64,000 nucleotides of DNA. It comes from Oceanispirochaeta crateris (GTDB lineage Bacteria > Spirochaetota > Spirochaetia > DSM-2461). A program made the position numbers and the translations under genes. The notes beneath the pieces were generated by a model. The model saw only the letters and a program-made list of their open reading frames with translations. It searched no databases and was not told where the DNA came from. The stretch lies in NCBI RefSeq assembly GCF_008329965.1, contig NZ_CP036150.1, positions 3,638,439 through 3,702,438 of the forward strand, written 5' to 3'. Positions 753-61,904 of the stretch are shown piece by piece. Position 1 is the stretch's first letter. Every line of letters starts with the position of its first letter.

Positions 753-2594
753 TCATCCCGCTGGCTGATCTGTTTTCTCTTTCAGCAATGGCAGGATCAT
801 TGTGACCTCGCACCCCGATACTTGCCTTCTGTTCTTTATTTCAATAGACCCTCCATAGCTTTCCAAAATTCCAAATACTATTGAAAGTCCCAGTCCCATA
901 TTTTCTTCTTTTTCCTGTTTTGTCGTATAAAAGGGCAAAAGAATATCTTTGATATCCCTTTCTCCCAGTCCTATCCCGGAATCCAGCAGACGAATCCTCA
1001 CAAATTTATTATCTTTGTTGTCCATGACCAAGTGGATCTCACCTCCATCGGGCATGGCATCAAAAGCATTTTTTAAAATATTTAGAAACACCTGCTTTAT
1101 TTTTACTCTGTTGGCCAAAATCACTGGATTTTCGGTTTTGATTTCAACCGCTATGGAGATTCCCCGCTGGAGAGCATTGGGTTTTATAAGGAGTAGCATT
1201 TGTTCTACAAGGGCCTGAAGGTTGAGCTTCTCGTCCTGATAGCGGTTCTTTTCTGAAAAAGTAATCAGATTGCTGACAATCTGTTCTATCGAGTCCAGCT
1301 CATCTTCCATATAGCCCAGAAATGTCTTAGATTCCTCATTTGAGATTCGATTTTTCAGTACATCCAGATAATTGTTAATGATTTCAAGAGGATTATTAAT
1401 TTCATGGGCTACTCCGGCCGCCAATAAACCTATGGACGCCAGTTTTTCGGAAAAATGGATTTTTTCCCTCATCTTTTCCTGTTCGCTTATGTCATCAACG
1501 ATGATGATGCTTCCCAAATAGTAGTTTCCGTCCAAAATGGGGTAAATCACCACATTGCAACAGATCTTATTTCCGGCAATTGTGATGTGTTTCTGATAGA
1601 GGTTTTCCCATTTTTTGGTTTCCAGTATTTTATATATTTCATCAGAGAAGCCCCTGTCTTCTTCGGCGAATACTTCAGAAAAGGGGGCTTCCAGAAGGAC
1701 CTCCCTCTTTTTATGAAAGAAAGTTTCTCCATAATGATTCAGGAGTTTTACATGACCTTCCCCGTTGACAACTAGAAGTGCCAGAGGGAGAAATTCAAGG
1801 ATGGCTTCATTGTATTTCAATAGATGATAAAAATCCTTATCCAGCTTTGTCAGGGATTTATTGCGAACAATCTGGGTATATGCCAACTTGATTAGATTGA
1901 TTTTATCAATGTTTTTGACTGATTCGGTAATTAGAACCGATCCATTCCTGAGGATCGTCACCCTGTCTGCAAATTCATATACATCATCGATTCTATGGGT
2001 GATGAAAAGAATTGTCCCCCCTCGGTCTCTCATCTTCCGGATCAGTTTGAGAACAAGGTCCAGGTCTATAGCCGTCAGTTTTTCAATGGCTTCATCCAGG
2101 ATCAGCAATTCGGGTTTTGTATGGAGCTGTCTGAGGATATTGATCATAACTTTCTCTGGGAGTGACAGGTCTCCTACAATTTTAGTGGGAGAAATGGTAC
2201 AGCCGGTTTCCCTGAGATAGGATTCGGCTGCTGCCAGTATCTTTCTCTGGCTTATGAAAAATCCGGGGAAAACATCCTTGTGGTTGTTGAATAGGTTGTA
2301 GGCAACCGAAAGGTGATTGAACAGCTCTGTTCCCTGGGTCACAAAGGCTATTCCCAGTGACCGCGCTTTCTGGTCATTTAAGGGAGATATAAGTTCTCCT
2401 TTCCAGAAAATCTCACCTTTGAGCTGTATGAATCCGCTGAGAATATGAGCCAGGGAGGACTTTCCGGCACCATGTTCCCCGATGAGGGCATGTATCTCTC
2501 CGGGCTGCATCTCCCAGGTGACCCGATCCAGAGCTTTGACAGATCCATAAGTATGGGAGATATTCGAAAGTGATATCAAAGACGAAGTCTCCAT
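753..2594 (-). CDS. Sugar-ABC-ATPase domain fused to PAS-histidine kinase (locus A)
   Basis: This 613-residue protein has no membrane segment. Residues 1-240 resemble the first ABC domain of MglA/RbsA-type importer ATPases: Walker A GEHGAGKS at 39-46, Q-loop TQG near 86-88, Walker B LLILDEA (D167, E168) and switch histidine H200. The family signature (LSxAQ) is degenerate (LSLPE), and DEPTSSL is replaced by DEAIEKL. Where an importer ATPase would begin its second ABC half, this protein has a linker (KLAYTQ, LLKYNE), a PAS-like domain (about 265-370), a HisKA box with H397 (GVAHEINNP), N509, and ATP-lid glycines (DSGIGL 538-543, GLGLSI near 567). It starts directly after the stop codon of the NtrC-type regulator gene, implying coupled translation and a cognate pair. 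A second copy lies at 56250-58109. Inference: it senses importer or nucleotide state. Confidence 0.9.
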   Translation of the reverse strand: METSSLISLSNISHTYGSVKALDRVTWEMQPGEIHALIGEHGAGKSSLAHILSGFIQLKGEIFWKGELISPLNDQKARSLGIAFVTQGTELFNHLSVAYNLFNNHKDVFPGFFISQRKILAAAESYLRETGCTISPTKIVGDLSLPEKVMINILRQLHTKPELLILDEAIEKLTAIDLDLVLKLIRKMRDRGGTILFITHRIDDVYEFADRVTILRNGSVLITESVKNIDKINLIKLAYTQIVRNKSLTKLDKDFYHLLKYNEAILEFLPLALLVVNGEGHVKLLNHYGETFFHKKREVLLEAPFSEVFAEEDRGFSDEIYKILETKKWENLYQKHITIAGNKICCNVVIYPILDGNYYLGSIIIVDDISEQEKMREKIHFSEKLASIGLLAAGVAHEINNPLEIINNYLDVLKNRISNEESKTFLGYMEDELDSIEQIVSNLITFSEKNRYQDEKLNLQALVEQMLLLIKPNALQRGISIAVEIKTENPVILANRVKIKQVFLNILKNAFDAMPDGGEIHLVMDNKDNKFVRIRLLDSGIGLGERDIKDILLPFYTTKQEKEENMGLGLSIVFGILESYGGSIEIKNRRQVSGCEVTMILPLLKEKTDQPAG

Positions 2595-3932
2595 CTAGAT
2601 CTGATACTCCCTCAATTTGTTGTAGAGTGTGGCTCTGCTGATTCCCAGAAGGGCCGCCGCCTGCTTCTTGTTGTTGTCACACTCCTTGAGGGTTTTACAA
2701 ATCAGCTCTTCTTCCATTTCCTGATGAAGATTCCCTCTTGTTCCCTGTTTGAGGGAGTGTGTGATTTTTCGGGGAAGGTCGTCTATTTCAATCACAGAAG
2801 ACCCGGCTATGGCCGCGGCGTATTGGATGGTGCTTTTCAATTCTCGAACATTTCCGGGCCAGTCATATCGAAGTAAAAAATCAACTGTTTGAGGAGACAG
2901 GGAGAACGCTGTCTTTGAATTGTTTTTGCACCGTGACAGAAAATGCTTTGCCAACAGAAGAACCTCATTCCGTCGTTCCCGCACAGGAGGAATCTGTAAG
3001 ATGGCAGTATTGAGACGGTAGTAGAGGTCTTCCCGGAATTTTTTTCCGGCAATGAGAGCATCCAGATCTTTATTGGTTGCTGCAATGAAGCGGACATCCA
3101 CTTTGATGATTTTGTCGCTACCTATCCTTTTCACCTCATTATTTTGAATGGCCCTGAGAATTTTAGCTTGTGTGGAGAGGGACATGTCTCCCAGTTCATC
3201 CAGAAAGAGAGTCCCTCCATGGGCTCGTTCAAAGACTCCTTTAAAGCCGTTGGAGGCCCCTGTAAAGGCCCCCTTCTCATGGCCGAATAGCTCATCATCG
3301 AGTAAGGCATCAGGCAAGGCCGCGCAGTTCACCTTGATCATAGGGCAATCACGCCGGTTAGAGTGTTTATGGAGCAGGTCGGCAAACATTTCTTTCCCGG
3401 TACCGCTCTCTCCCTGTATCAGAATGGGCAATTCCGTAGAGGCCAGTTTTATCGTTCTATGGCGCAGGTCTATCATGGAAGGATCATCAATGATCAGAGT
3501 TTCTTCCTCATCGATTTGATCCTGCAGTTTTTTGTTTTCCTCTTCCAGGGAGTACATTTTCAAAGCTGTATTGATGGACGCGACCAGTTGTTCTATTTTG
3601 ACGGGCTTTTGCAAGTAGTTGAAGGCTCCCAACTTGATGGCTTCTATGGCCGTTTCTATGGTTCCATAGCCTGTAAACATAATAACAGGAATTGACAGCT
3701 GATGGTCCTGGATCTTCAAAAGCAGATCCAGTCCGTTCTCATCACCCAAACAGACATCAACTAGAGCCAGTTGAATCTTTTCCATTTGAATCTTTTTCCA
3801 GCCTTCTTCCAGAGTCGAGGCTTTCTGAGTCTTAAAACCTCTTCCGTTCAAAGAGAGAGCCAGGCTATCTTGTACCTTCTGTTTGTCATCAACTATTAAA
3901 ATATAAGAATTATTTGTCAAAATATTAGACAC
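2595..3932 (-). CDS. NtrC-family sigma-54-dependent response regulator (locus A)
   Basis: The 445-residue protein has the standard NtrC order. A receiver domain (about 9-125) carries acidic residues D15/D16 and phosphoacceptor D59. An AAA+ domain contains GESGTGKE (Walker A), the sigma-54 contact motif GAFTGA and the arginine-finger region RERRNEV. A Fis-type helix-turn-helix (GISRATLYNKL) lies at the C-terminus. It should activate RpoN promoters when phosphorylated, presumably by the fusion kinase encoded next. The divergent ABC importer has a near-consensus -24/-12 promoter 125 bases away, which makes that operon the likely target. The start taken is GTG at 3932; its AAAGGAG sequence is only 2 bases upstream, and TTG at 3920 is 14 bases from it, so the exact start is unsure. 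Confidence 0.93.
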   Translation of the reverse strand: MSNILTNNSYILIVDDKQKVQDSLALSLNGRGFKTQKASTLEEGWKKIQMEKIQLALVDVCLGDENGLDLLLKIQDHQLSIPVIMFTGYGTIETAIEAIKLGAFNYLQKPVKIEQLVASINTALKMYSLEEENKKLQDQIDEEETLIIDDPSMIDLRHRTIKLASTELPILIQGESGTGKEMFADLLHKHSNRRDCPMIKVNCAALPDALLDDELFGHEKGAFTGASNGFKGVFERAHGGTLFLDELGDMSLSTQAKILRAIQNNEVKRIGSDKIIKVDVRFIAATNKDLDALIAGKKFREDLYYRLNTAILQIPPVRERRNEVLLLAKHFLSRCKNNSKTAFSLSPQTVDFLLRYDWPGNVRELKSTIQYAAAIAGSSVIEIDDLPRKITHSLKQGTRGNLHQEMEEELICKTLKECDNNKKQAAALLGISRATLYNKLREYQI

Positions 3933-3963
3933 TTCTCCTTTGGGGTGTCTAAATATTAAACAC
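3921..3963. promoter_or_regulatory. Overlapping inverted repeats, candidate NtrC-type binding sites
   Basis: TTAGACAC (3925-3932) and GTGTCTAA (3945-3952) form a perfect 8-base inverted repeat spanning the regulator's start codon and Shine-Dalgarno. The right arm is shared by a second imperfect palindrome, GTGTCTAAATATTAAACAC (3945-3963). The sites lie about 95-135 bases upstream of the sigma-54 promoter, a usual enhancer distance, and overlap the probable promoter of the regulator operon. They could therefore serve both activation of the importer and autorepression. Binding is inferred. Confidence 0.5.
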
Positions 3964-3982: not shown

Positions 3983-4056
3983 TCAATATTTCATTAAAGC
4001 TCGGTTTAAATGCTGTTTTTCAATGAATATGTTTATTTTTCATAGTTTCTATGAAA

Positions 4057-4073
4057 TTGGCACGCATCCTGCA
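4057..4073 (+). promoter_or_regulatory. Sigma-54 (-24/-12) promoter of the locus A importer
   Basis: TTGGCACGCATCCTGCA matches the RpoN consensus (TGGCACG, four bases, TTGCW) with one mismatch, a C for the first T of the -12 box. The GG and GC dinucleotides have the required spacing. It lies 35 bases upstream of the ATPase start codon and next to a divergently encoded NtrC-type activator. Confidence 0.85.
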
Positions 4074-4108: not shown

Positions 4109-5602
4109 ATGGATGAAATCTTAATCCTCCAAAATATTCAAAAAAGATTTGGAGGGGTTCATGCAGTGCAGGATGTTTCTCTCTCATTCACCACGGGGGA
4201 AGTCTGTGCTTTGATGGGAGAAAATGGAGCTGGTAAGAGTACCTTGGGAAAAATCATTGCCGGTATTCATAATCCGGATTCAGGAGATATTTGGTTTAAT
4301 GGAGAAAAACTGGAGTCAATCACTCCCTTTGTTGCTCAGGAAAAAGGGATCAGCCTGGTTTTGCAGGAGTTGGACCTGTTTCCCAGCTTATCTGTAGGCA
4401 TGAACATCATAAACAATAATATCTCATTCAAGCATCTGGAGAAGGGATTTCTTAGTCCTAAACTGATCAATAAGGCCGTTGAACCCTGGCTCAAAAAAGT
4501 CCGTCTAGATATTAACCCGTCGACATTGCTGGAAGACCTCTCCATGGCACAGATTCAAATGGTCGCCATCGCTAGGATTCTGAGCATGAATACCCGGTTG
4601 ATTATAATGGATGAACCTACCAGCTCCCTCACAAATGATGGTGTGGAGAATCTGTTCAGCCTCATTGATGAATTGAGAAAAGATGGTGTGACAATCATAT
4701 ACGTGTCCCATAAAATGAGTGAGATCTTTCGAATTTCAGATACTGTTGCCGTGATGCGTGATGGAGCTTTCATCGCCAAAAAACGGACTGCCGAAACGAA
4801 TAAGGAAGAGATCATTGAATTGATGGTGGGGCGTCCTTTGTCTGGGAAGGAGAGACAAAAGAGCTGGAATAGAAACAAGACGATTCTGGATGTCAAAGAA
4901 TTGACTTCTTCCACGGTCAAAAATATCTCCTTCTCTCTTTCTGAAGGGGAGGTCCTGGGTATTGCCGGTTTAGTCGGAGCGGGACGCAGTGAGTTGGGAG
5001 AGGCCCTGTTCGGTCTGGACCCCATTCTTTCCGGGTCTGTGGAATTACAGGGGAAAATCCTCAAGAACAAATCACCTAGAAATGCCATTGCCAATGGAAT
5101 CGGGTTTATTCCTGAAGATAGAAAAAACCAGGGATTGATGATGCAGATGAGTGTGAAGGAAAATATGATCATGTCTTATCTGGATCATTTGCAGTCCAGG
5201 GGATTCTTTAATAAAGAGAAAATCCATAATTCTGTTGTAGATTTAATTGATCAGATTAAGATTAAAACGGCCTCCATTGACTCCTGTGTCGAAGAATTAA
5301 GCGGGGGGAATCAGCAAAAGGTTCTGGTCTCACGATGGTTGATGGTGAATCCGCCTGTTTTATTCTTGGATGATCCCACCCGCGGGGTGGATGTAGGGGC
5401 GAAAGAAGATATTTACGAGTTGATTACCTACCTTGCGTCACAAGGGAAGGGGATCATCTTTGTCAGCTCGGAATTACCGGAACTCTTGCGGTGTTGCGAT
5501 CGAATAATGGTTCTTGCAGAAGGTCAGCAAACTGCCCTATTGAATGCTGAAGAAACGACACAACAGGAAATTATGTCTTACGCCACAAATGTCCTGGGAT
5601 AG
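4109..5602 (+). CDS. Ribose/galactose-type ABC importer ATPase (locus A)
   Basis: This 497-residue protein has two ABC domains, the arrangement of RbsA/MglA. The first half carries Walker A GENGAGKST (37-45), signature LSMAQ and Walker B IIMDEPTSSL. The second has the family's usual degenerate P-loop (GLVGAGRS), an intact LSGGNQQK signature and LDDPTRGVDVGAK. It powers uptake of a monosaccharide or similar solute through the permease encoded next; the substrate cannot be read from sequence. The ATG start is preceded by AAAGGA at 4097-4102. It is first in an ATPase-permease-binding protein operon, an order different from loci B and C. Its first half aligns by eye with the N-terminal part of the adjacent fusion kinase (LFxxLSVxxN after the Q-loop in both). 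Confidence 0.93.
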   Translation: MDEILILQNIQKRFGGVHAVQDVSLSFTTGEVCALMGENGAGKSTLGKIIAGIHNPDSGDIWFNGEKLESITPFVAQEKGISLVLQELDLFPSLSVGMNIINNNISFKHLEKGFLSPKLINKAVEPWLKKVRLDINPSTLLEDLSMAQIQMVAIARILSMNTRLIIMDEPTSSLTNDGVENLFSLIDELRKDGVTIIYVSHKMSEIFRISDTVAVMRDGAFIAKKRTAETNKEEIIELMVGRPLSGKERQKSWNRNKTILDVKELTSSTVKNISFSLSEGEVLGIAGLVGAGRSELGEALFGLDPILSGSVELQGKILKNKSPRNAIANGIGFIPEDRKNQGLMMQMSVKENMIMSYLDHLQSRGFFNKEKIHNSVVDLIDQIKIKTASIDSCVEELSGGNQQKVLVSRWLMVNPPVLFLDDPTRGVDVGAKEDIYELITYLASQGKGIIFVSSELPELLRCCDRIMVLAEGQQTALLNAEETTQQEIMSYATNVLG

Positions 5603-5633
5603 ATTAAGAAATAGATATGAAAAGGATGCAATC

Positions 5634-6662
5634 ATGACTTCTGAATTTAAAATGAAACAAATTCCCTCTCTCTTTAAAAAAGGCACTACATGGCTTAAAC
5701 GCTTTCAGAGCCTGACAGGCCTTGTGCTGATAATAATCATGGCGATCATCTTGAGTCCCAGGCAGCATGGAACCGGGCATATCCTATTTCTGACATCTGA
5801 GAATATTTCTGATATTTTCAGACAAGTTTCTGAAAATGGAATCATTGCCATCGGCATGACCTTTGTTATTTTGACTTCGGGGATTGACCTCAGTGTAGGA
5901 AGCTTGCTTGCTGTCGCAGCCACGTTTTCAGCTAAGATTTTAACCCAGTGGGATCCCCCCTTTGGTCAGAGTCTTCATCTTTTTCTGGCTATTTTTCTTC
6001 CTTTGATTTTGACCACTAGTTTTGGTACGATCTATGGCCTGGTCATTTCAAAACTCAAAATACAACCCTTTATTATCACCCTGGCGGGGATGATAGGTAT
6101 CCGAGGATTCGCCCGGTTTCTCACTAATAACGCCAACATCGACATCGGTTTTGGAGATGATATCTCCTCCGTTTTTGCAAATCTCTTGTCCCCGAAGCCG
6201 GTGGTTATTTCAACCTTTGTCATTGCGGCCATCGTCATGTCTATTTTGCTAAGCCGGACAGTTTTTGGTTTGAGAGTTAAATCTATCGGGGACAACAGTA
6301 TCGGTTCCCGATACGCCGGTCTTCCTGTCACGAAAATCATTCTTCTTACCTATGCACTTTCAGGATTCCTAACCGGGATAGCCGGGATCCTTCATGCCGC
6401 ACAGAATCATCAGGGTAGCCCCAATGACGGAATGTCCTATGAACTGGATGCTATTGCCGCCGTTGTTATTGGTGGAACCAGGATGACGGGGGGGAAAGGA
6501 AGCATCCTTGGGACCATTATTGGAGTTTTCATCATGGGGATACTGACCAATACATTTCGATTGAAAGGGGTCGATATCAATATAGAAATGATGGCCAAGG
6601 CTATCATCATTGTCATAGCCGTATGGCTTCAGATGCCCAGACAGGGCAAAAATAAGGGATGA
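5634..6662 (+). CDS. Ribose-type ABC importer permease (locus A)
   Basis: The frame is open from 5544, but ATG at 5634 is chosen: it follows AAAAGGA (5620-5626) at normal distance and avoids overlap with the ATPase gene. The 342-residue product is a polytopic inner-membrane protein of the RbsC/BPD_transp_2 family, with the typical segment GIDLSVGSLLA after the second hydrophobic stretch and the conserved cytoplasmic region DAIAAVVIGGTRMTGGKG near the C-terminus. It would form the translocation pore with the ATPase encoded upstream and receive substrate from the binding protein encoded downstream. A charged N-terminal extension of about 25 residues precedes the first membrane helix. Confidence 0.92.
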   Translation: MTSEFKMKQIPSLFKKGTTWLKRFQSLTGLVLIIIMAIILSPRQHGTGHILFLTSENISDIFRQVSENGIIAIGMTFVILTSGIDLSVGSLLAVAATFSAKILTQWDPPFGQSLHLFLAIFLPLILTTSFGTIYGLVISKLKIQPFIITLAGMIGIRGFARFLTNNANIDIGFGDDISSVFANLLSPKPVVISTFVIAAIVMSILLSRTVFGLRVKSIGDNSIGSRYAGLPVTKIILLTYALSGFLTGIAGILHAAQNHQGSPNDGMSYELDAIAAVVIGGTRMTGGKGSILGTIIGVFIMGILTNTFRLKGVDINIEMMAKAIIIVIAVWLQMPRQGKNKG

Positions 6663-6703: not shown

Positions 6704-7678
6704 ATGAATAAGAGACTAACCGCAATTGGAGTATTACTCCTGACCGTATTCATGGGAACTCAGTTATTTGCTGAAGGGAAAAAGGATGTTACAGCGGAGA
6801 AACAAGGTTATCTTGTCATATTCAGCCAGGCAAATAATGCAGAACCCTATAGAGCTTCACAGAATGACTCTTTCAAGGAACTTTGGGCAGAGTATAGTGA
6901 TGTGACATTTGAAATAATGGATGCACAGCAGGATAATAGCCGACAGATCTCACAGATCGAGACATCTATTATCAAGAATCCGGACCTCTTAATTGTTGCT
7001 CCAAATGAGAGAGGACCTCTTTCTGAGGTCATGGGTAAAGCAAAAAATGCAGGGATTCCTGTGGTCTGTCTGGAACGGGATATTGTAGATGCAGAAAACT
7101 ACACTACCTGGATCATGAGTGACAACTATTCCATCGGTAAACTGGCCGGTGAATATATGGTTGATCTGCTGATTGAAAAAAATGGTGAACCAAAGGGAAC
7201 TATCGTAGACTTGAGAGGATCTCTTGGTGTTGAAGGTGAGCAGAAAAGATTTAAAGGTGCCTGGGATGTATTTGATCAATATCCTGGAATAACTCAAGAA
7301 GCAGAAGCTGTTTGTAACTGGCTGCAGAGTGAAGGCCGTATCAGGATGACTGAAATCCTCCGTGCTCATAACAACATCGATATCGTATACGGACATAACG
7401 ATCCCATGGCTGTTGGTGGATACCTTGCCGCAAAAGACCTGGGTCTTGAAGATGATATCATTTTCATCGGTGTAGATGGCCTGTTGGGAGAAGCCGGTGG
7501 AATCAAAAAAGTCATTGACGGTGTTCTGGATGCCACTTTTACCTATCCTCTTTGTACTGAAAAAGCCGTTGAAATTGGAAATAAAATCATGAGAGATCCT
7601 GCTTTCACACCCGAAAAAGTGTATGAAGTAGCCTCTGCCATGGTCACTCCTGAGAATGCTCAGTCTCTGTATAAATGA
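6704..7678 (+). CDS. Periplasmic sugar-binding protein (locus A)
   Basis: A 324-residue type I periplasmic binding protein (RbsB-like, Peripla_BP_4). The signal peptide ends around LFAEGKKD. Family features are FSQANNAEPYR near the N-terminus, a hydrophobic ligand-lobe strand (PDLLIVAPNE), the hinge stretch IVDLRGSLGVEGEQKR and NDPMAVGGYLAAKDLG. It should capture a monosaccharide-like ligand and deliver it to the permease encoded immediately upstream. The start has a strong AAAGGAGG site. It is last in its operon, followed by an intrinsic terminator at 7783-7811. Its place after the permease differs from loci B and C, where the binding protein gene comes first. Confidence 0.92.
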   Translation: MNKRLTAIGVLLLTVFMGTQLFAEGKKDVTAEKQGYLVIFSQANNAEPYRASQNDSFKELWAEYSDVTFEIMDAQQDNSRQISQIETSIIKNPDLLIVAPNERGPLSEVMGKAKNAGIPVVCLERDIVDAENYTTWIMSDNYSIGKLAGEYMVDLLIEKNGEPKGTIVDLRGSLGVEGEQKRFKGAWDVFDQYPGITQEAEAVCNWLQSEGRIRMTEILRAHNNIDIVYGHNDPMAVGGYLAAKDLGLEDDIIFIGVDGLLGEAGGIKKVIDGVLDATFTYPLCTEKAVEIGNKIMRDPAFTPEKVYEVASAMVTPENAQSLYK

Positions 7679-21635: not shown

Positions 21636-21761
21636 GTTTCAAATTCCTCTTCCAAAAGAGTTTAAAATCCTCTTTTCCCCCAAAAATAGTGCTGAATATT
21701 GAACATTTTGTATTGAATTTTCGCTTCCTGGATACAAAAAGCAGGGTTAACCTGATTCAAG

Positions 21762-21779
21762 TTCAGGTGATCACCTGAA
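21762..21779. promoter_or_regulatory. Perfect 18-base palindrome before the locus B importer
   Basis: TTCAGGTGATCACCTGAA is identical to its own reverse complement. It lies 30 bases before the binding-protein start codon, downstream of weak promoter-like sequence, and has no T run, so it reads better as an operator or mRNA structure than as a terminator. The binding protein is unknown. Confidence 0.55.
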
Positions 21780-21809
21780 GTATTTTCTATTTTTCAAAGG
21801 AGTAAATTT

Positions 21810-22925: not shown

Positions 22926-22950
22926 AAAGGGCTTTTGCCATGAATCATTG

Positions 22951-22974
22951 AGTATCCGGTATTTACCGGATACT
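22951..22974 (+). other. Stem-loop between binding-protein and ATPase genes (locus B)
   Basis: AGTATCCGGT and ACCGGATACT form a perfect 10-base stem with a four-base loop. Only GTTTTG follows, so termination would be weak at best. It probably stabilises the binding-protein mRNA or attenuates read-through. Confidence 0.7.
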
Positions 22975-23040
22975 GTTTTGTCCATAATCCGGAGACAATC
23001 TGTTTCCGGGTTTCTATAAAAAAATGTTTAGGAAAAAGCG

Positions 23041-24561
23041 ATGTCAGAGCAGCAGGAATACATCCTGGAAATGCACAACATAACAAAATCATTTCCCGGA
23101 GTGAAGGCTTTAGATAATGTCAGCCTTAAGGTTCGACCCGGTACGGTTCATGCTCTTATGGGCGAGAACGGAGCCGGAAAATCCACTCTTATGAAATGCC
23201 TCTTCGGCATTTACAAGAAAGATGATGGTGAAGTCTTTCTCAATGGTGAAAAAGTTGAATTTCACAGTGCCAAAAATGCACTGGAATCGGGTGTTTCCAT
23301 GATTCATCAGGAACTCTCCAATGTCCCTGAACGATATGTCATGGAAAATCTCTGGTTGGGAAGGGAGCCCCTGCATCGCATTGGGCCTCTCGCTCTGGTT
23401 GACCATAAAAAAATGTACAATGATACATTGGAGCTCATGAAAAAGCTCGAAATGGTCGTCGATCCCAGAAATAAAATGAGTGAACTTTCAATATCCAAGC
23501 AGCAGGGATGTGAAATAGCTAAGGCTGTTTCTTATAAAGCTTCCGTTGTGGTCATGGATGAACCCTCTTCTTCTTTGTCAGAAACAGAAGTAGAGCTTCT
23601 TTTTAAAATTATCAACAACCTGAAAAAACAAGGTGTTGCCATAATATACATCTCTCACAAAATGAGTGAAATCTTTCAAATTTCAGACGAAATCTCCGTC
23701 ATGAGAGATGGCCGTCTTGTGGCCAGTCAACCCGCTTCAGAATTGGATGATGACAAATTAATCAAGTTGATGGTTGGACGAGATATGACTCATCGTTTTC
23801 CTCCCATCGATTTCAGTTCCGGCGATGATACCATTTTAAAGGTTGAGAATCTCACCGCATCAAATCCGCGTTCCTTCAAGAATATTTCTTTTGAACTGAA
23901 AAAAGGAGAGATTCTGGGGATAGGTGGTCTGGTCGGTGCCCAAAGAACCGAATTAGTAGAAGCCATTTTCGGTTTGCGCGGCATTGAGTCGGGAACCATT
24001 GAGGTTCATGGAAAAGAAGTTGTCATAAATAGTCCGAGAGAGGCCATAGCCAATGGGATTGGTCTTATCACTGAAGATCGGAGAGGATCTGGAATCTTCC
24101 CCTTACTTTCTATTTTGGATAATACATCCATACCTTCTTTGGATACATATATACAAAAGAATCATCTTTTAAATCATAAACTGATAGAATCTGATTCGAT
24201 TCAGGTGAATAAGCAGCTGAGAACAAAGACTCCCACTTATAAAACTCCCATACAGAATCTTTCTGGTGGTAATCAGCAGAAGGTTATTGTTGCCCGTTGG
24301 CTCATGACCTCTCCTGATATCCTGATTATGGATGAGCCAACGAGGGGAATCGATGTTGGTGCAAAGTATGAAATCTATCTGATTATGACTGAACTGATCA
24401 AACAGGGGAAATCAATCATCATGGTTTCTTCAGAAATGCCCGAACTGTTGGGTATGTCCAGTAGGGTTATGGTCCTTTGTAACGGAAAACATACTGGAAC
24501 TCTGAACAGAGATGAAGCAAATCAGGAATCAATCATGCGGCTGGCTGCCCAGTTCCGTTGA
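23041..24561 (+). CDS. Ribose/galactose-type ABC importer ATPase (locus B)
   Basis: A 506-residue tandem ABC protein of the MglA/RbsA family. The first half has GENGAGKSTL, signature LSISKQQG and VVMDEPSSSLSE. The second has the degenerate GLVGAQRTEL loop, LSGGNQQKV, MDEPTRGIDVGAKYE. The first-half signature is LSISK, mildly unlike the usual LSxAQ. It energises the permease encoded 31 bases downstream. The gene starts at ATG preceded by AGGAAAAAGCG, a modest Shine-Dalgarno sequence. Confidence 0.93.
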   Translation: MSEQQEYILEMHNITKSFPGVKALDNVSLKVRPGTVHALMGENGAGKSTLMKCLFGIYKKDDGEVFLNGEKVEFHSAKNALESGVSMIHQELSNVPERYVMENLWLGREPLHRIGPLALVDHKKMYNDTLELMKKLEMVVDPRNKMSELSISKQQGCEIAKAVSYKASVVVMDEPSSSLSETEVELLFKIINNLKKQGVAIIYISHKMSEIFQISDEISVMRDGRLVASQPASELDDDKLIKLMVGRDMTHRFPPIDFSSGDDTILKVENLTASNPRSFKNISFELKKGEILGIGGLVGAQRTELVEAIFGLRGIESGTIEVHGKEVVINSPREAIANGIGLITEDRRGSGIFPLLSILDNTSIPSLDTYIQKNHLLNHKLIESDSIQVNKQLRTKTPTYKTPIQNLSGGNQQKVIVARWLMTSPDILIMDEPTRGIDVGAKYEIYLIMTELIKQGKSIIMVSSEMPELLGMSSRVMVLCNGKHTGTLNRDEANQESIMRLAAQFR

Positions 24562-24592
24562 ATCAGGCCTTTTGGCCCTTTAGGAGATAATT

Positions 24593-25606
24593 ATGGAAAA
24601 GACAGAAACAAAAATTGCCGGCATCAAGATTCCGGATAGACTTAAGCAGATATTAAGTTCACATACCAGTTTTATTACATTTTTCTTGATGCTGATGGCA
24701 TTGGGGATTATGACAAATGGAGGGGCTTTAAGAATCGGTTCTCTGCAGAATCTTGTCGTTGCCGAGGCCGTAAGAGGCTTTGCTGCTCTGGGTGTAGGTA
24801 TGATCATCATTACCAAAGGAATCGACTTGTCACTCGGTCAGGTTATAGGCCTTTCCGCCTGTGTGGCATCGTCTTTTGCACAGTCGCCGGATTATGCCAG
24901 TGCTCTGTATGCCGGGCAGGAATTCGCCATCTGGTTACCCATTGTTGCAGGGATATCAGTGGGTGCTCTGTTTGGACTTTTTAATGGTATATTAGTAGCT
25001 TATGGAAATATTCCTCCCTTTATAGCTACTCTGGGATCAATGTCCATAGCCAGAGGATTCAAGCTTATTTATACACAGGCTTCTACACTTGGTTCTTTGA
25101 AGAATGAGTATAAAGTTATTTCTCAGGGCTTCCTTGGACCTATTCCCTATCTTTTAATGTATGTCATTGTTGCCGCTTTTATTATTTGGCTGTTGATGAA
25201 TCATACGAAACAAGGGAAAAGTATTTATGCCATCGGAGGAAATGCTCAGGCTGCCAAGGTTTCAGGAATCAATGTGAAGCTTCAGTTGGTCAAAGTCTAT
25301 CTCTATGCAGGTATCCTTTACGGTATTGCTGGTATACTACTTTCCGCTCGTCTTGGTCTTGCCAATCCTTTAACAGGGAATGATATGGAACTTGATGCCA
25401 TTGCTGCGGTAACTGTGGGTGGTATCTCCCATGCTGGAGGTGTCGGTACCGTTGGTGGAATGATGATCGGTCTTATGACTCTGGGTCTTATCAACTTTGG
25501 TATGACTTATTTGGGTGTTAACTCCTACTTCCAGCTTTTGGTAAAAGGTGGAATCATCATCCTGGCCGTTTATTTTGATATGAGAAAACACGCCAGAAAA
25601 GACTAA
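24593..25606 (+). CDS. Ribose/galactose-type ABC importer permease (locus B)
   Basis: A 337-residue polytopic membrane protein of the RbsC/MglC family: KGIDLSLGQVIGLSA after the second hydrophobic stretch, GILVAYGNIPPFIATLGSM in the middle, and DAIAAVTVGGISHAGGVG in the last cytoplasmic loop. It forms the pore of the locus B importer with the ATPase. The gene starts at ATG after TAGGAG and ends the operon, 18 bases before a strong intrinsic terminator. Confidence 0.92.
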   Translation: MEKTETKIAGIKIPDRLKQILSSHTSFITFFLMLMALGIMTNGGALRIGSLQNLVVAEAVRGFAALGVGMIIITKGIDLSLGQVIGLSACVASSFAQSPDYASALYAGQEFAIWLPIVAGISVGALFGLFNGILVAYGNIPPFIATLGSMSIARGFKLIYTQASTLGSLKNEYKVISQGFLGPIPYLLMYVIVAAFIIWLLMNHTKQGKSIYAIGGNAQAAKVSGINVKLQLVKVYLYAGILYGIAGILLSARLGLANPLTGNDMELDAIAAVTVGGISHAGGVGTVGGMMIGLMTLGLINFGMTYLGVNSYFQLLVKGGIIILAVYFDMRKHARKD

Positions 25607-54931: not shown

Positions 54932-56263
54932 TTGAACAAATCTATCCTTATCATCGATGATAACGAGGCATTCTGTCGTAGTTTGGCCCGAATGCTGGGG
55001 GATGAGAGGATCAGTGTACACAGCTCCTTTAGTAGTAAGCAGGCATTCTGTCTCCTTAAGAAAACTCTTGTACATTTAGTTCTGCTGGATGTGCGCTTAG
55101 GAGATGAGTCAGGTCTCGAAGTGCTATCACTCCTTCAGAAGCAATACCCCAATCTTCCTGTGATAATGCTTACAGGTTATGCCTCCATTGAATCAGCAGT
55201 TCAATCTATAAAGTTGGGAGCTTTTGATTATATTCAGAAACCTGTTAAATATGAAAAATTAATGAAGCTGATTGATAATGCCTGTACGATTGCATCATTA
55301 AAAAAAGAGAATCGGGATCTACATGAGAGTCTGGACCACTTGAGACCCAAAATATTGAGCCAAGATCCTCGGGTGAATGAAATTAAAAATACAATCAATA
55401 AACTGACTGCAGCTAATTTACCCATCCTTCTTTATGGAGAGAATGGAACAGGGAAAGAATTATTTGCGGATTATATTCATTTTCAAAGCAGTAGAAAAGT
55501 TAGAAAAATTATTAAAATCAATTGTGCCGCTTTTGCAGATACCTTACTGGACAATGAATTATTTGGACATGAAAAAGGGGCGTACACCGGGGCAGATTCC
55601 CTTTATCAGGGAGTCTTTGAAAAGGCGGATCAGGGTTCTCTGTTTTTAGATGAGATAGGAGATATGTCTCTAGAAGTCCAGGCTAAGGTTTTAAGGGTCA
55701 TTCAGAACAAGGAGCTTTTCCGTTTGGGAGGTAAAGAGGTCATTCATGTTGATGTCAGACTGATTTCTGCTACAAATAAAAAGCTGGAAGTTTTGATCAG
55801 AGAAGGCCGCTTTCGTGAAGATCTGTACTATCGCCTCAACGCAGCCACCGTATCTATACCTCCTCTACGGGAACGACCGAATGATATTCCTCTTTTAACA
55901 GATCTCTTTTTGAAAGAGTTTGCATCAGAGAACAACAAGGTTTTAAAAGGGATTGATCCTGATGTAATGGACCAGCTCAAGAAATATCCATGGCCAGGGA
56001 ATATCCGTGAGCTTAAGAATGTTATCAATTATGCAGCTGCTGTATCATCGACAGGAACTCTTGGCATCAGGGATCTTCCTGGGTCATTGCAGCATGGTGT
56101 TCCGGGAAGAACCGGTCTGCTGAATACTCTTGATGATTCAGAAAAAAGTATCATTCTTAATGAGTTGAAAAAAACAAATTATAATAAGAAAAAAGTAGCA
56201 GAGATTTTAAATATTAGTAGAACAACTCTGTACAGCAAGATGAGAAAGTATGAAATCCTTTGA
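54932..56263 (+). CDS. NtrC-family sigma-54-dependent response regulator (locus C)
   Basis: A 443-residue homologue of the locus A regulator. Receiver domain with D9/D10 and phosphoacceptor D53 (VLLDVRLGDESG), AAA+ domain with GENGTGKE, and the sigma-54 contact loop as GAYTGA, a Phe-to-Tyr variant of the usual GAFTGA that is known in functional activators. The C-terminal Fis-type helix-turn-helix is NISRTTLYSKMRKYE. The start is TTG at 54932, with AGGG nine bases or so upstream; no ATG or GTG fits. The last 14 bases overlap the ABC-kinase fusion gene, so the two are co-translated. The predicted target is the sigma-54 promoter at 58269. Confidence 0.92.
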   Translation: MNKSILIIDDNEAFCRSLARMLGDERISVHSSFSSKQAFCLLKKTLVHLVLLDVRLGDESGLEVLSLLQKQYPNLPVIMLTGYASIESAVQSIKLGAFDYIQKPVKYEKLMKLIDNACTIASLKKENRDLHESLDHLRPKILSQDPRVNEIKNTINKLTAANLPILLYGENGTGKELFADYIHFQSSRKVRKIIKINCAAFADTLLDNELFGHEKGAYTGADSLYQGVFEKADQGSLFLDEIGDMSLEVQAKVLRVIQNKELFRLGGKEVIHVDVRLISATNKKLEVLIREGRFREDLYYRLNAATVSIPPLRERPNDIPLLTDLFLKEFASENNKVLKGIDPDVMDQLKKYPWPGNIRELKNVINYAAAVSSTGTLGIRDLPGSLQHGVPGRTGLLNTLDDSEKSIILNELKKTNYNKKKVAEILNISRTTLYSKMRKYEIL

Positions 56264-58109
56264 TTGGAACCATGAGACTCCTATTTTGGAGCTTAAGGAT
56301 GTATCTATACAATATGGGACCATAAAAGCCCTTGATGGTATCAATCTTTCAATTCATGGGGGAGAAATCCACGCCATTGTCGGTGAGCACGGTGCAGGTA
56401 AATCAACACTTGCCAAGATGGTTGCCAACCTTATCAGTCCTGATTCAGGGCAGATTCTTTTTCGAGGAAAACCCTATGGTCCATTGGGATACAAAGGCAC
56501 AATTGATGCAGGGATCAGAATGGTCTTTCAGAAGATGCAATTGAATCAGACTCTCACGGTTGCAGAAAATTTGTTTATAGCCAATAAGGAAGCCTTTGGA
56601 TCTCGAGGAGGATTTTTTAGTCAAAAGAAGGTAGACCGCCTAGCAGAGACATTCCTCAGAGAAAACCAATACAATCTGAAGCCAAGGACCAAAGTTTCTG
56701 AATTAGGTCTTTCAGACAGAGCTCTCTTGAGTATCATCAAAAATTTGTATCATCCACCACGAATTCTGATTTTAGATGAGGCTTTGGAGAAATTATCTGC
56801 TCAGGGGTTGGACAGGGTCATTCAGACACTCAAGAAATTAAGAGATGACGGTTGTTCCATTCTTTTTATTACACACAGGATTGATGATCTCTACATGATT
56901 GCAGATAGGGTCAGTGTCGTCAGGAAAGGAGAAGTCCTTATTTCTGATGATATTGGAGAATTGGATAAAATCAGTCTTATTAAAATTGCTTATACCCAAT
57001 TCTCAAATCTGGAAGATCACCTAGGGCAGGCTGAAGAGTTTAATAAGCTGATGAAGTATAATGAGGTTATTCTAAAACAGCTTCCCATTAGTCTTATTGT
57101 TTCTAATTTCGAAAATCGAATCAGAATGATGAATGGGAGTGCCAAGGAGTTATTTAGTACGTCTTCAGCTTCAGATATGATTGATTTGTCACTGGAAGAG
57201 CTTTTTCAGAATAATCCCAGGACCCTCGATCTTCTCAAGGAGACACGAGGTGGTAAAGATACACGGTCTCTATATAACACCCCTCTTAAACTAAATCAGG
57301 GAACTGCCATGGTGAACATCATTGTATTTCCAATTTTTGAAGGAACTCTGCTCATAGGAAATATGTTAATCATAGAGGATATTACAGAAAGAGAGCAGCT
57401 TAGGAACCAACTTGTCTTGTCTGAAAAATTGGCCTCTTTGGGACTTTTGGCCGCAGGAGTGGCTCATGAGATCAATAATCCGTTAGGTGTTATCACAAAC
57501 TACCTTGAGTCTTTTAAGATGGATAAAATCCTGGCAGAAGAACGGGATTCTGTCTATGCGTACCTCTTTGAACAGATCAACTACATTACCCAGGTAATCG
57601 GTAATTTAATCTCCTTTTCCGAAAATCAGAGTCAAACTACGGAGTTGGTATGTGTCAATGAAGCCATACAGAATATAATTGACCTGATACGTTTCAATGG
57701 CAAGCAAAAGCATATCCAAATACAATTTTCTCCAAATAAATCAGAAGTCCTGAATGTCAGAATCAATAAAAATGAGTTCAAACAGGTCATATTGAACCTA
57801 TTCAAGAATGCATTTGAAGTGATGCCCGATGGAGGGCACATCGTCATTACAACAGCTTTGAAGGTTTCTGATTCTGAATCCAGTGTTCACATATGTTTTG
57901 AGGATAATGGTCCTGGGATACTCTTTGAAAACCCTTCAGATGTTTTTCTGCCATTTACCACATCCAAAAATACAAACAGTAATTTTGGACTCGGACTCTC
58001 TCTGTGTTACAATATTCTGAGTCGTTATGATGGTGAAATTACCGTTCAGTCTGATAAAGAAAATGGTACTCAATTTCAAATAACTCTTCCTCTCTCAGAA
58101 AGTGTATGA
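56250..58109 (+). CDS. Sugar-ABC-ATPase domain fused to PAS-histidine kinase (locus C)
   Basis: A 619-residue soluble protein with the same order as the fusion at 753-2594. ABC domain (about 10-250): Walker A GEHGAGKST (45-53), degenerate signature LGLSD, Walker B LILDEALEKL with D176 and E177, and H209 in FITHRIDD. A conserved linker follows (KIAYTQ, LMKYNE) and then a PAS-like segment (about 275-380). HisKA has H406 (GVAHEINNP); the ATPase lid has DNGPGI and GLGLSLCYN. As in the other copy, Walker A has H where true importer ATPases have N, and Walker B continues EALEKL. It overlaps the NtrC-type gene by 14 bases and precedes the third ABC importer. Confidence 0.92.
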   Translation: MKSFDWNHETPILELKDVSIQYGTIKALDGINLSIHGGEIHAIVGEHGAGKSTLAKMVANLISPDSGQILFRGKPYGPLGYKGTIDAGIRMVFQKMQLNQTLTVAENLFIANKEAFGSRGGFFSQKKVDRLAETFLRENQYNLKPRTKVSELGLSDRALLSIIKNLYHPPRILILDEALEKLSAQGLDRVIQTLKKLRDDGCSILFITHRIDDLYMIADRVSVVRKGEVLISDDIGELDKISLIKIAYTQFSNLEDHLGQAEEFNKLMKYNEVILKQLPISLIVSNFENRIRMMNGSAKELFSTSSASDMIDLSLEELFQNNPRTLDLLKETRGGKDTRSLYNTPLKLNQGTAMVNIIVFPIFEGTLLIGNMLIIEDITEREQLRNQLVLSEKLASLGLLAAGVAHEINNPLGVITNYLESFKMDKILAEERDSVYAYLFEQINYITQVIGNLISFSENQSQTTELVCVNEAIQNIIDLIRFNGKQKHIQIQFSPNKSEVLNVRINKNEFKQVILNLFKNAFEVMPDGGHIVITTALKVSDSESSVHICFEDNGPGILFENPSDVFLPFTTSKNTNSNFGLGLSLCYNILSRYDGEITVQSDKENGTQFQITLPLSESV

Positions 58110-58135
58110 AAAATGAACATATATGCTTTACAGAG

Positions 58136-58149
58136 TGTTCACTTGAACA
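58136..58149. promoter_or_regulatory. Palindrome upstream of the locus C sigma-54 promoter
   Basis: TGTTCACTTGAACA has perfect six-base arms around CT and lies 119 bases upstream of the -24 element, a usual enhancer distance. A lone TGAACA half-site lies at 58114-58119. It is a candidate binding site for the locus C NtrC-type regulator. Confidence 0.5.
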
Positions 58150-58268: not shown

Positions 58269-58285
58269 TTGGCATGATAGTTGCA
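58269..58285 (+). promoter_or_regulatory. Sigma-54 (-24/-12) promoter of the locus C importer
   Basis: TTGGCATGATAGTTGCA contains the invariant GG and GC at correct spacing, a full TTGCA -12 element and TGGCATG at -24 (one change from TGGCACG). It is 54 bases before the binding-protein start codon. Confidence 0.87.
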
Positions 58286-58339: not shown

Positions 58340-59296
58340 ATGAGAAAAAATGTTTTAGTCCTTTTAATCTGCATGTTGCTATTGATGCCCATGCTCGCAA
58401 TGGCTAAAGGTGCCCAGGAAGAAGTCAAGGATGACAGGCCGGTAGTTGGCTTAATTATGAAGTCTTTGGCCAATGAGTTTTTCATGGCTATGGAGGAAGG
58501 TGCCCAGGCCTATGCAGCCGAGGATGGTACATTTAAGCTTATCACCATGGGAATGAACTCAGAAACTGATTTTGACTCACAAGTAAATGCCGTTGATACT
58601 CTGATAACGCAAGGTGTCGATCTTATTGTTCTTGCTCCCGCAGATTCTGCGGGAATGGTAGCACCGGTAAAAAGAGCCATCGATGCAGGTGTTACGGTCA
58701 TTAATTTTGACGTGACATTGGATAAGGATGCATTGAAAGCCGCCGGACTTCCTGAAGAATTCCTTTTTGTAGGACCTGATAATACAGATGGTGCCGAAAT
58801 GGTTGGGAACTATCTAGGTGAAAAACTGGGAGATGGTGGTAAGGTCTTTATTCTGGAAGGTAATCCTGGAGCAGATAATGCAAAACAGAGAAAAAACGGC
58901 TTTATGAAGTCTATTGCTACTCATAACCTGGAACTGCTCGCTTCCAATACAGCCCATTGGGAGACAGAAGAAGCAAATACTCTCATGACAAATCTTTTGA
59001 CAAAGCATCCTGATGTTCAGGGAGTTATGTGTGCCAATGATTCTATGGCTCTCGGTGTTGTCCGGGCTTTAGAAGCTGCAGGACGATCTGATGTCCAGGT
59101 CGTTGGTTTTGATAATATCCCTGCAGTTAAAGATCTAATTCTGAATGATAAAATGTTGGCTACAGTACATATGGATGGTGCAGAAATGGCTATTTTAGCA
59201 TTTAATGCAGGATTTGAGATTTTGGCCGGAGAAAGAGAGAATCTTGGTTGGGTACAGTCACCGCTAATTCTGGCAGATAAGGCCTTTTTTGAATAA
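58340..59296 (+). CDS. Periplasmic sugar-binding protein (locus C)
   Basis: A 318-residue RbsB-type binding protein. The signal peptide ends near LAMAKGAQEE. Family features: GLIMKSLANEFFMAMEEGAQ (ligand-facing first lobe), VDLIVLAPADSAGM, VFILEGNPGADNAKQRKNG, CANDSMALGVVRALE and VGFDNIPAVKDLI. It resembles ribose-binding proteins most, but the ligand is unproven. It is first in its operon, behind a sigma-54 promoter, with AAAGGAG before the ATG. A terminator-like hairpin lies between it and the ATPase gene. Confidence 0.93.
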   Translation: MRKNVLVLLICMLLLMPMLAMAKGAQEEVKDDRPVVGLIMKSLANEFFMAMEEGAQAYAAEDGTFKLITMGMNSETDFDSQVNAVDTLITQGVDLIVLAPADSAGMVAPVKRAIDAGVTVINFDVTLDKDALKAAGLPEEFLFVGPDNTDGAEMVGNYLGEKLGDGGKVFILEGNPGADNAKQRKNGFMKSIATHNLELLASNTAHWETEEANTLMTNLLTKHPDVQGVMCANDSMALGVVRALEAAGRSDVQVVGFDNIPAVKDLILNDKMLATVHMDGAEMAILAFNAGFEILAGERENLGWVQSPLILADKAFFE

Positions 59297-59348: not shown

Positions 59349-59366
59349 CATAAGTGAGGAGATTTG

Positions 59367-60872
59367 ATGGCTGCTAATAATATAATAGAACTGCAGAATA
59401 TTTCTCTTGTTTTTCCTGGTGTCAGAGCTCTTAATGAAGTAAATCTTGCTATTCACAAAGGGGAAATTCACGTTCTGCTGGGAGAAAACGGAGCCGGGAA
59501 ATCTTCCCTGATAAAAACTATTTGCGGAGTGTATCAGCAGAGCAGTGGTACCATGATTTTTGATGGGTTGGAGTATGCTCCTTTGAATCCATTGACAGCC
59601 ATTCAGAAAGGAGTTCGGGTTGTTTATCAAGAGTTTAACCTTTTACCTTATCTATCCATTGCAGAAAATATATTCTTTGAAAAGCTACCTAGTAAGGGAG
59701 GCCTGGTTGATTATCAACGCCTCAATCATGAAGCTTCACTTCTGATGGCTAAAGTGGGACTTGGAAAATTGTCTCCAAAAATGCCTGTTGAGAATCTGGG
59801 TGTTGCACAGATGCAGTTGATAGAAATTGCCAAAGCTCTTTCCGGAGATAGTCGCATTTTGATTCTGGATGAACCCACGGCTACATTGATGCCGGATGAA
59901 ATTGATACCCTCTTTGCATTATTACTTAAGTTAAAATCTGAGGGAGTCTCCATAATTTATATTTCTCACCGCTTGAATGAGATTTTCCGCATCGGGGACA
60001 GAGTGACAGTGCTGCGAAATGGAGAACTGGTAGGGACTCATCCTTCTTCTGAGTTGGATATACCGAAGATTGTAAAGATGATGGTGGGACGGAACATGGA
60101 TTCAGAGTATCCCTTTGATGACACAGTGCTTCCTTCTGATCCACTCCTAGAAGTGAAAGATTTAAAATATAAAGGGAATCCTCATTCCAAATCCTTTACT
60201 CTGAGAAAAGGGGAGATTCTGGGGATTGCAGGTTTAGTCGGCTCGGGTAGAACCGAAACTATGCGAGCTTTATTCGGGGCTGATCCCAAGATGGGAGGTC
60301 AAATCTTTCTGAAAGGAGAAGAACTGATCATTACAAGTCCTCGGGATGCCGTGAAAAATGGAATTTGTTTACTGACGGAAGACCGTAAACAACAGGGGCT
60401 CATCCTTGAAATGAGCTGTGTTGAAAACACGACCATTACAGACTTAAAATCTGTTTCCGATTATGGTTTTTTGAATCGAGAACAGGAGCGTGAAGCTACT
60501 GAGAAACAAATCCGTGAAATGAATATCAAAACGCCGGGAATAGACCAGAAAACCCTCCACCTTTCTGGGGGAAACCAACAGAAAATTCTCATTGGTAAAT
60601 GGTTGTACAGAGATTCTGAAGTTTTTATCTTTGATGAGCCTACCAGAGGAATTGACGTCGGGGCAAAATATGAAATCTATCTTCTGTTATGGAAGCTGGC
60701 GGCAATGGGCCGGGGTATCATCATGGTCTCATCAGATCTGCCTGAACTGACGGGGGTCTGCCACCGGATACTGGTTTTTTCAGATGGAAAAATAACAGGT
60801 GAATTGGAGAGAAAGGATTTTGATCCTGAGTCTATTTTGGCATTGTCATATAAAGAGTATTTACAGAGTTAG
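59367..60872 (+). CDS. Ribose-type ABC importer ATPase (locus C)
   Basis: A 501-residue tandem ABC protein of the RbsA family. First half: GENGAGKSSL, signature LGVAQMQL and LILDEPTATLMPDE. Second half: GLVGSGRTETM, LSGGNQQKIL and FDEPTRGIDVGAKYE. TTG at 59364 precedes ATG 59367 in frame; the ATG is chosen for its spacing from GTGAGGAG. It drives the permease encoded 42 bases later. Its Walker B (DEPTATL) is intact, unlike the EALEKL version in the neighbouring fusion kinase. Confidence 0.93.
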   Translation: MAANNIIELQNISLVFPGVRALNEVNLAIHKGEIHVLLGENGAGKSSLIKTICGVYQQSSGTMIFDGLEYAPLNPLTAIQKGVRVVYQEFNLLPYLSIAENIFFEKLPSKGGLVDYQRLNHEASLLMAKVGLGKLSPKMPVENLGVAQMQLIEIAKALSGDSRILILDEPTATLMPDEIDTLFALLLKLKSEGVSIIYISHRLNEIFRIGDRVTVLRNGELVGTHPSSELDIPKIVKMMVGRNMDSEYPFDDTVLPSDPLLEVKDLKYKGNPHSKSFTLRKGEILGIAGLVGSGRTETMRALFGADPKMGGQIFLKGEELIITSPRDAVKNGICLLTEDRKQQGLILEMSCVENTTITDLKSVSDYGFLNREQEREATEKQIREMNIKTPGIDQKTLHLSGGNQQKILIGKWLYRDSEVFIFDEPTRGIDVGAKYEIYLLLWKLAAMGRGIIMVSSDLPELTGVCHRILVFSDGKITGELERKDFDPESILALSYKEYLQS

Positions 60873-60914: not shown

Positions 60915-61904
60915 ATGATTGATAATTCCCGAATGAGGTCATTATTTAATATTTTATTGAAGGAAGTGGGGATCGGAGTCGTTCTTTTGGTTCTTGTCAT
61001 TGCTTTTAGCTTGGGAGCCAACCATTTTTTTTCGGTCAACAACGTTGCAAATATATTTACTCAGATCAGTATCAATACGGTCATCGCAGTAGGTATGACT
61101 TTTGTGATCCTTCTGGGAGGAATTGATCTCTCCGTCGGGTCGGTTTTGGCCCTTTGTTCCATCATAGCCGGAAAGATTCTGACAAATCCAGACTTGTCTC
61201 TTGGTTCGGCCATTGTCCTTGCCATACTATTGAGTGTTATTTCGGGTATGTTGATTGGTTTTTTAAATGGGTTTATTTCAGAAACCTGGAAAATCCATTC
61301 CTTTATTGTCACTCTGGGAATGTTAAACATAGCCCGGGGGTTGGCACTTCAGATCAGTCAGTCCAGAACGATCTTTAATTTTCCGAAAGTATTTAATGAC
61401 TTTGGTACAAGAACCTATTTCAGTGTGCTTCCGGCTATATTCATAATGGCTCTAAGCCTGGTGATCCTTGGGTCAGTCGTACTGAGAAAGACCGTTTTTG
61501 GAAGGATGATCTTTGCCATTGGTAACAATGAGGAATCTGTCCGTCTTTCAGGACATAATGTTAAGTTTTATAAAATCATGGCTTATACCATCTGTGGAGG
61601 GACAGTTGGGATTGCTACGATAATGTATATGCTCAGGATGAGTATTGCCAGTCCCATCCTAGGAGTTGGTTTTGAGTTGAATGCGATTGCCGCTGTTGTC
61701 ATTGGTGGAACAAGCATGAGCGGTGGGAAAGGGTCTCTTGTTGGGACTTTTTTGGGAGCCTCTATTATGGGGGTATTGAACAATGGTCTACTCCTGATAG
61801 GGATGGGAGATTTTGCCCGTCAGATAGTAACTGGCCTGATCATAATCTTAGCCGTCATATTGGATACCTATAGGACAAGATTCTCTGTTAAGTTGAATAC
61901 CTGA
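60915..61904 (+). CDS. Ribose-type ABC importer permease (locus C)
   Basis: A 329-residue RbsC-family membrane protein with GGIDLSVGSVLALCSIIAG after the second hydrophobic stretch and the conserved last loop DLNAIAAVVIGGTSMSGGKG-like text (NAIAAVVIGGTSMSGG). A charged N-terminal segment precedes the first helix. It forms the pore of the third importer with the ATPase encoded upstream. It starts after GAGGAGG and ends the operon, 12 bases before the stop of a convergent radical SAM gene; no terminator is evident. Confidence 0.92.
   Translation: MIDNSRMRSLFNILLKEVGIGVVLLVLVIAFSLGANHFFSVNNVANIFTQISINTVIAVGMTFVILLGGIDLSVGSVLALCSIIAGKILTNPDLSLGSAIVLAILLSVISGMLIGFLNGFISETWKIHSFIVTLGMLNIARGLALQISQSRTIFNFPKVFNDFGTRTYFSVLPAIFIMALSLVILGSVVLRKTVFGRMIFAIGNNEESVRLSGHNVKFYKIMAYTICGGTVGIATIMYMLRMSIASPILGVGFELNAIAAVVIGGTSMSGGKGSLVGTFLGASIMGVLNNGLLLIGMGDFARQIVTGLIIILAVILDTYRTRFSVKLNT

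Follow-up and report, generated by a model that had tools for sequence, protein, structure and literature searches.

In the MalK-MalT and PstB-PhoU-PhoR systems, the ATPase of an importer signals the state of transport to a regulator, and CbrB, the partner of the histidine kinase CbrA, is an NtrC-family sigma-54 activator. In Bce modules (BceAB, BceS and BceR) a kinase that lacks a sensor reads an ABC transporter and raises its expression, which is known as flux-sensing (PMC10314905), and in CbrA a transporter-derived domain is fused to a PAS domain and a histidine kinase (PMC8871633). Here, we analyze a 64-kb stretch (the window) of the single-contig 4.01-Mb genome of Oceanispirochaeta crateris. 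In contrast to the Bce modules, the kinase at one of its loci, locus C, itself carries an ABC domain and acts with sigma-54. Literature searches, whose coverage left out most subscription papers, returned no ABC-ATPase/histidine-kinase fusion and no spirochaete sigma-54 sugar importers, and a term search of the text of a 2025 survey found no mention of ribose-type importers under sigma-54 in spirochaetes. The gene module is widely conserved and apparently undescribed. We estimate a probability of roughly two in three that sigma-54 drives the importer operon from positions 58269-58285 and, jointly, that the kinase reads the importer, an estimate made without expression data.

Results

Locus C comprises the following features.

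54932..56263, + strand: NtrC-type response regulator (Pfam Response_reg, Sigma54_activat, AAA_lid_14 and HTH_8; GAYTGA loop)
56250..58109, + strand: ABC-kinase fusion (Pfam, alignments, AlphaFold2 model)
58103..58119, no strand: candidate half-sites TGTATG-N5-TGAACA, left half imperfect, overlapping the kinase stop codon; a footprint common to the locus C relatives
58136..58149, no strand: candidate activator dyad TGTTCA-CT-TGAACA, 120-133 bp upstream of the promoter
58269-58285, + strand: predicted sigma-54 -24/-12 promoter TTGGCATGATAGTTGCA (strict consensus match, conserved in relatives)
58340..59296, + strand: ribose/allose-type substrate-binding protein (Pfam Peripla_BP_4)
59364..60872, + strand: RbsA-type double ATPase (domain and family profiles)
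60915..61904, + strand: RbsC-type permease, BPD_transp_2 (domain and family profiles)

The promoter runs from T58269 to A58285 and fits the sigma-54 -24/-12 consensus. GG (58271-58272) and GC (58283-58284) are exactly 10 nt apart (GG-N10-GC); sequence, coordinates and spacing are all as the first-pass annotation of this DNA had claimed. The ATG of the binding-protein gene (58340) lies 54 bp downstream, with the ribosome-binding site AAAAGGAGA in between. The criteria for a CUT2 (ribose-type) importer are met by the double-NBD ATPase, the BPD_transp_2 permease and the Peripla_BP_4 protein, the last with ribose- and allose-binding proteins among its nearest solved relatives.

A second set of the same parts, locus A, lies near the start of the window.

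753..2594, - strand: ABC-kinase fusion (Pfam)
2595..3932, - strand: NtrC-type response regulator, GAFTGA (Pfam and sequence)
3925..3963, no strand: candidate activator sites, three GTGTYTAA half-sites in two overlapping inverted repeats
4057..4073, + strand: predicted sigma-54 promoter TTGGCACGCATCCTGCA (strict consensus match)
4109..5602, + strand: RbsA-type ATPase (domain and family profiles)
5544..6662, + strand: permease (Pfam)
6704..7678, + strand: substrate-binding protein (Pfam)

The two kinases are 38-39% identical, and the locus A promoter ends 35 bp before ATG 4109 of the first importer gene. The same arrangement had been claimed for both loci. This stands for the parts and for the promoter ahead of the importer but not for gene order: at locus A the regulator and kinase genes are read away from the importer, the promoter lying in between, and only at locus C are the genes co-directional. 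An inverted repeat, TTTCATAGTTTCTATGAAA (4038-4056; 8-base arms, 3-base gap), directly adjoins the locus A -24 element and is a possible operator for another regulator. Among solved structures, the locus A binding protein comes closest to 2x7x, a binding domain with the annotation 'sensor protein'.

The locus C kinase consists of an RbsA-NBD1-like ABC_tran domain (about 11-248), a linker, a PAS domain (about 262-380) and HisKA and HATPase_c domains, and its AlphaFold2 model (mean pLDDT 81.8) is well predicted except for the linker at 250-270. Crude hydropathy and the model gave no convincing transmembrane segment, the most hydrophobic stretch lying in the PAS strands, and the kinase looks soluble and without an extracellular sensor. 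It meets the criteria for an orthodox histidine kinase (HisKA phospho-acceptor His, HATPase_c N and G boxes), with H406, N516/N520, D552, G554, G556, G580 and G582 invariant. Among ABC ATPase criteria, Walker A (G45/G50/K51), the Q-loop (Q94) and Walker B (D176/E177) are kept by the fusion NBDs, which form two classes with GEHGAGKS and GEHRAGKS Walker A motifs; the H-loop H209 is kept in class I and mostly lost in class II. The Asn-to-His change in Walker A is a mark of the fusions, from which the Walker B Pro-Thr extension is absent. The LSGGQ signature criterion is not met, the fusions having LSLSDR/LSLPEK-type sequences instead. This loss is partly ancestral, because the RbsA NBD1 of these importers is also degenerate there, which weakens it as a fusion-specific change.

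All 56 fusion NBDs fall on one side of a branch (100/97) of the NBD tree, apart from RbsA NBD1 and NBD2, and are nearest to RbsA NBD1. By these statistics, the N-terminal ABC domain is of single descent from the RbsA NBD1 lineage; the tree rules out a recent fusion from the local RbsA. Viral contigs matched ordinary kinase domains only. The PDB holds no full-length relatives, only separate matches to the ABC or the kinase part, and no NCBIfam model reaches its cut-off for the fusion; the best profiles for kinase and regulator, AtoS and AtoC, are below cut-off.

Full-length fusions (E <= 1e-60) occur in 16 of 393 Spirochaetota genomes, as 25 proteins. A contig scan with the linker region of the fusion gave 43 loci, mostly from spirochaetes, the others from MAGs labelled UASB270, KSB3, Olavius Delta 1, Desulfovibrio, Opitutae and Poribacteria. 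The fusion-kinase loci number 58, from Spirochaetota and from MAGs labelled KSB3/UASB270, Desulfobacterota, Opitutae and Poribacteria; on these assignments, for which mis-binning is possible, the module extends beyond the spirochaetes. At nearly all loci the fusion follows an NtrC-type regulator and has an importer (RbsA, RbsC and binding protein) next to it. The best promoter match in 44 promoter regions had 0 mismatches in 23, 1 in 14 and 2 in 6, with none in the remaining region. In the same regions the reversed pattern matched 4 times at 2 mismatches and never with fewer. All 14 further loci (from the first set) have a site with <=1 mismatch, which gives a total of 51/58 facing the importer or its operon. 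This count includes a few near-identical relatives, and in L080 and L120 the single mismatch falls in the -12 GC.

The four-part module inferred earlier from the window alone (RpoN site, NtrC activator, ABC-kinase and importer) hence recurs in other genomes, at 37/44 and 14/14 loci. Relatives that keep kinase and importer without the promoter, named beforehand as what would refute it, do exist as a minority of 7, of which 6 have a two-mismatch candidate and one (L130) has none. At several loci the sigma-54 operon starts with a catabolic enzyme gene ahead of the importer (nucleoside hydrolase, shikimate-dehydrogenase-like or URO-D-like).

Some loci depart from the common layout. In Bacterium UASB270 (L103, 7086-17772), class I and class II fusion modules adjoin, with a separate importer and sigma-54 site for each. 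At L080, the same genome region includes a second importer that has a perfect sigma-54 site (288-304) and lacks a fusion kinase beside it; a single regulator may serve both importers. Regulator, kinase and a perfect promoter are kept without an adjoining importer at L133, L134 and L137. Perfect sites lie on both sides of the regulator-fusion pair in L133 (6980, - strand; 10410, + strand) and L134 (284, - strand; 3696, + strand), facing a zinc alcohol dehydrogenase gene and a PfpI-like gene. The L137 site (6740, the same as L083 7299) adjoins the fusion kinase; an ice-binding-like protein gene lies about 735 bp downstream of the site, and there is no RbsA-type importer nearby.

Contact between the ABC domain and the importer predicts that this domain diverges along with the importer and the kinase half along with the regulator. 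A mirror-tree test, using rank partial correlations over 33 loci, gave the result expected for such contact. Given the HK, the fusion NBD correlates with RbsA NBD2 (0.54) and the permease (0.48), values reached in 0/500 permutations each, and less with NBD1 (0.24), the binding protein (0.13) and the REC domain (0.08). Given the NBD, the HK correlates with REC (0.55) and AAA+/HTH (0.69) and not with the permease (-0.06) or NBD2 (0.02). The values for the kinase NBD (0.54-0.55 against NBD2, 0.48 against the permease) come near that between NBD2 and permease themselves (0.54), and RbsA NBD1 is weaker on both counts (0.35 and 0.27). The pattern was stable without the locus C group, without long branches, when thinned to 18 loci and under jackknife. 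Composition was rejected as a cause, given that the correlations were unchanged when it was controlled.

This suggests, without proving it, that the kinase ABC domain docks on the importer and that the kinase senses importer engagement, the simplest reading of the correlations being that the kinase NBD sits in place of NBD1 against NBD2 and permease. A mirror-tree correlation measures linked divergence, not contact, and NBD segments exchanged together with importers would give the same signal, an alternative that also ties the NBD to the importer. Three further observations count against the importer-reading account: nearly all loci have a complete conventional RbsA, so no ATPase is missing for the kinase to supply; the three loci noted above have module and promoter without an adjacent importer; and class II fusions have mostly lost H209.

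The invariant Walker A and Walker B aspartate, the well-modelled fold of the domain and the lack of a transmembrane segment evident by hydropathy would also suit an ABC domain that senses cytoplasmic ATP/ADP (energy state) instead of the importer, with promoter and two-component pair both real. We regard this as improbable: nothing would make an energy sensor co-diverge with the permease and RbsA NBD2 next to it, or tie it to a single type of importer. The signal could also be a cytoplasmic sugar metabolite bound by the PAS domain, which sits between NBD and kinase, leaving the ABC domain as a structural or membrane-tethering relic; truncations of CbrA suggested that its PAS-HK part perceives the signal and that the fused transporter is dispensable (PMC8871633). 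A relic would lose its nucleotide-site residues, however, and these are kept across 56 sequences, and the importer-linked divergence resides in the NBD and not in the PAS domain (PAS given NBD against permease, 0.08), which makes this possibility somewhat weaker again.

Both regulators meet the criteria for NtrC-family response regulators, with a receiver (REC), a sigma-54 AAA+ domain with a GAFTGA-type loop (GAYTGA at locus C, GAFTGA at locus A) and a Fis-type HTH. TGTYCA/TGRACA half-sites are common to five locus C relatives; most lie 110-170 bp ahead of the promoter, those in L095 at 300-365 bp, and 18 were observed against 2.1 expected, with 0/2000 shuffles as high. The motif was picked post hoc from the sequences on which it was tested and is a lead only; without binding data, the cluster is a candidate enhancer. 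Dyads of the TGTTCA-CT-TGAACA kind number nine in the genome, including that at 58136-58149. No shared UAS was found among the locus A relatives. As the genome encodes 13 strong sigma-54 activator domains, a different activator could read the importer promoter while the adjacent pair controls something else, but the company that regulator, kinase, promoter and importer keep across distant genomes and the shared half-sites upstream of the locus C promoters make this very unlikely.

A loose search of the window (TGGCACN5TTGCW, up to 2 mismatches) gave 30 matches against 26.8 expected, which is no excess and unconvincing alone. The strict consensus YTGGCAYRN4YTGCW, drawn from general knowledge and untrained on these loci, matches the 4.01-Mb genome 10 times, and its reversed-pattern control 0 times. 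A readable gene start lies 1-54 bp downstream of 9/10 strict sites; no ORF was found at the tenth. Strict matches here are therefore close to all genuine. The genes behind them are the two importers described here plus mostly typical sigma-54 targets. On the sequence evidence, the sites at L009-L013, L016 and L018 are a small readable sigma-54 regulon; they precede genes that we take, from our own reading of the sequence, to be PspA-like, TolC-like, exported DUF-type, Hsp20 and AmtB genes, as well as two amino-acid-type binding-protein genes.

The genome has only 2 full-length ABC-kinase fusions, and 18 RbsA-type double ATPase genes were recognised among its fetched loci. A strict site is found at 2/2 fusion-linked importers and at 0/16 of the other RbsA-type ATPase genes, a pairing with a chance of 1 in 153. 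The third ribose-type importer of the window (21810-25606), beside a Cache-domain kinase and an AraC-type regulator, is an internal control, and a search within the window found no -24/-12 site at it. The region 17282-25606 holds this importer, the YesM/YesN-like pair and an extra binding protein. The genome encodes rpoN (PF04552 at 1.7e-55); its co-occurrence was discarded as evidence, rpoN being near-universal in Spirochaetota (378/393). Sequence statistics thus confirm the locus C promoter as real. The claim that a chance match was very unlikely is borne out, and, notwithstanding the absence of an excess in the window at 2 mismatches, chance agreement with a loose consensus can be set aside in view of the 10 strict genome matches against 0 reversed and the 51/58 loci with a site at <=1 mismatch.

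Discussion

The promoter, the conservation of the module, its domain make-up, the single origin of the fusion and the co-divergence with the importer are supported by statistics on sequences alone. Binding of the regulator to its sites, phosphotransfer, docking as a physical contact and the direction in which the system responds are inferred, as there are no binding, phosphotransfer or expression data. In the mechanism that we propose, a sugar-loaded binding protein would engage the permease, on which, together with RbsA NBD2, the kinase ABC domain would be docked, either replacing RbsA NBD1 or next to it. Engagement would change the docking and thereby alter the kinase through linker and PAS domain. 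The kinase at 56250 would then phosphorylate the NtrC-type regulator at 54932, and the phosphorylated regulator, on TGTYCA-type upstream sites, would loop to the sigma-54 RNA polymerase at 58269-58285. The importer genes, and in some loci catabolic genes too, would be expressed more when substrate is present. The broadest form of this proposal is tentative, and we hold it at slightly less than even odds: that these are captured-ATPase sensor kinases of several phyla, filling the place of NBD1 against RbsA NBD2 and permease, with the importer as extracellular sensor and a dedicated sigma-54 activator.

The results add ribose-type importers to spirochaete sigma-54 control. If the proposed mechanism is true, the cell feels the activity of the importer directly, via a spare transporter ATPase domain fused to a kinase, which would explain how a seemingly soluble kinase answers to a sugar outside. 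Flux sensing would become testable by domain swaps, and the ABC-HK fusion with its GEHGAGKS Walker A offers a fixed marker for assigning substrates to many importers.

Two-component control of an adjoining sugar importer is likewise found in YesM/YesN-type systems, of which the window has one (17282-21635); these combine a Cache-domain membrane kinase with an AraC-type regulator and have no -24/-12 site. NtrB/NtrC- and AtoS/AtoC-type pairs share the HisKA kinase and the sigma-54 response regulator, and we know of no NtrB or AtoS with an ABC ATPase domain. In MalK-MalT and PstB-PhoU-PhoR the partners are separate proteins, without a covalent ATPase-kinase fusion. BceS is an unfused membrane kinase that contacts its transporter via transmembrane helices and answers antimicrobial peptides; by hydropathy and model, the present kinase does not meet the criterion of a membrane kinase with transmembrane helices. 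Nor does it meet that of an SLC5 transporter domain, as Pfam gives ABC_tran: CbrA has a whole SLC5 membrane transporter, whereas the ABC ATPase domain of the present kinase is soluble and corresponds to a single subunit of an importer made of several parts. By analogy, it may nevertheless work like the Bce or CbrA systems, though without their defining features.
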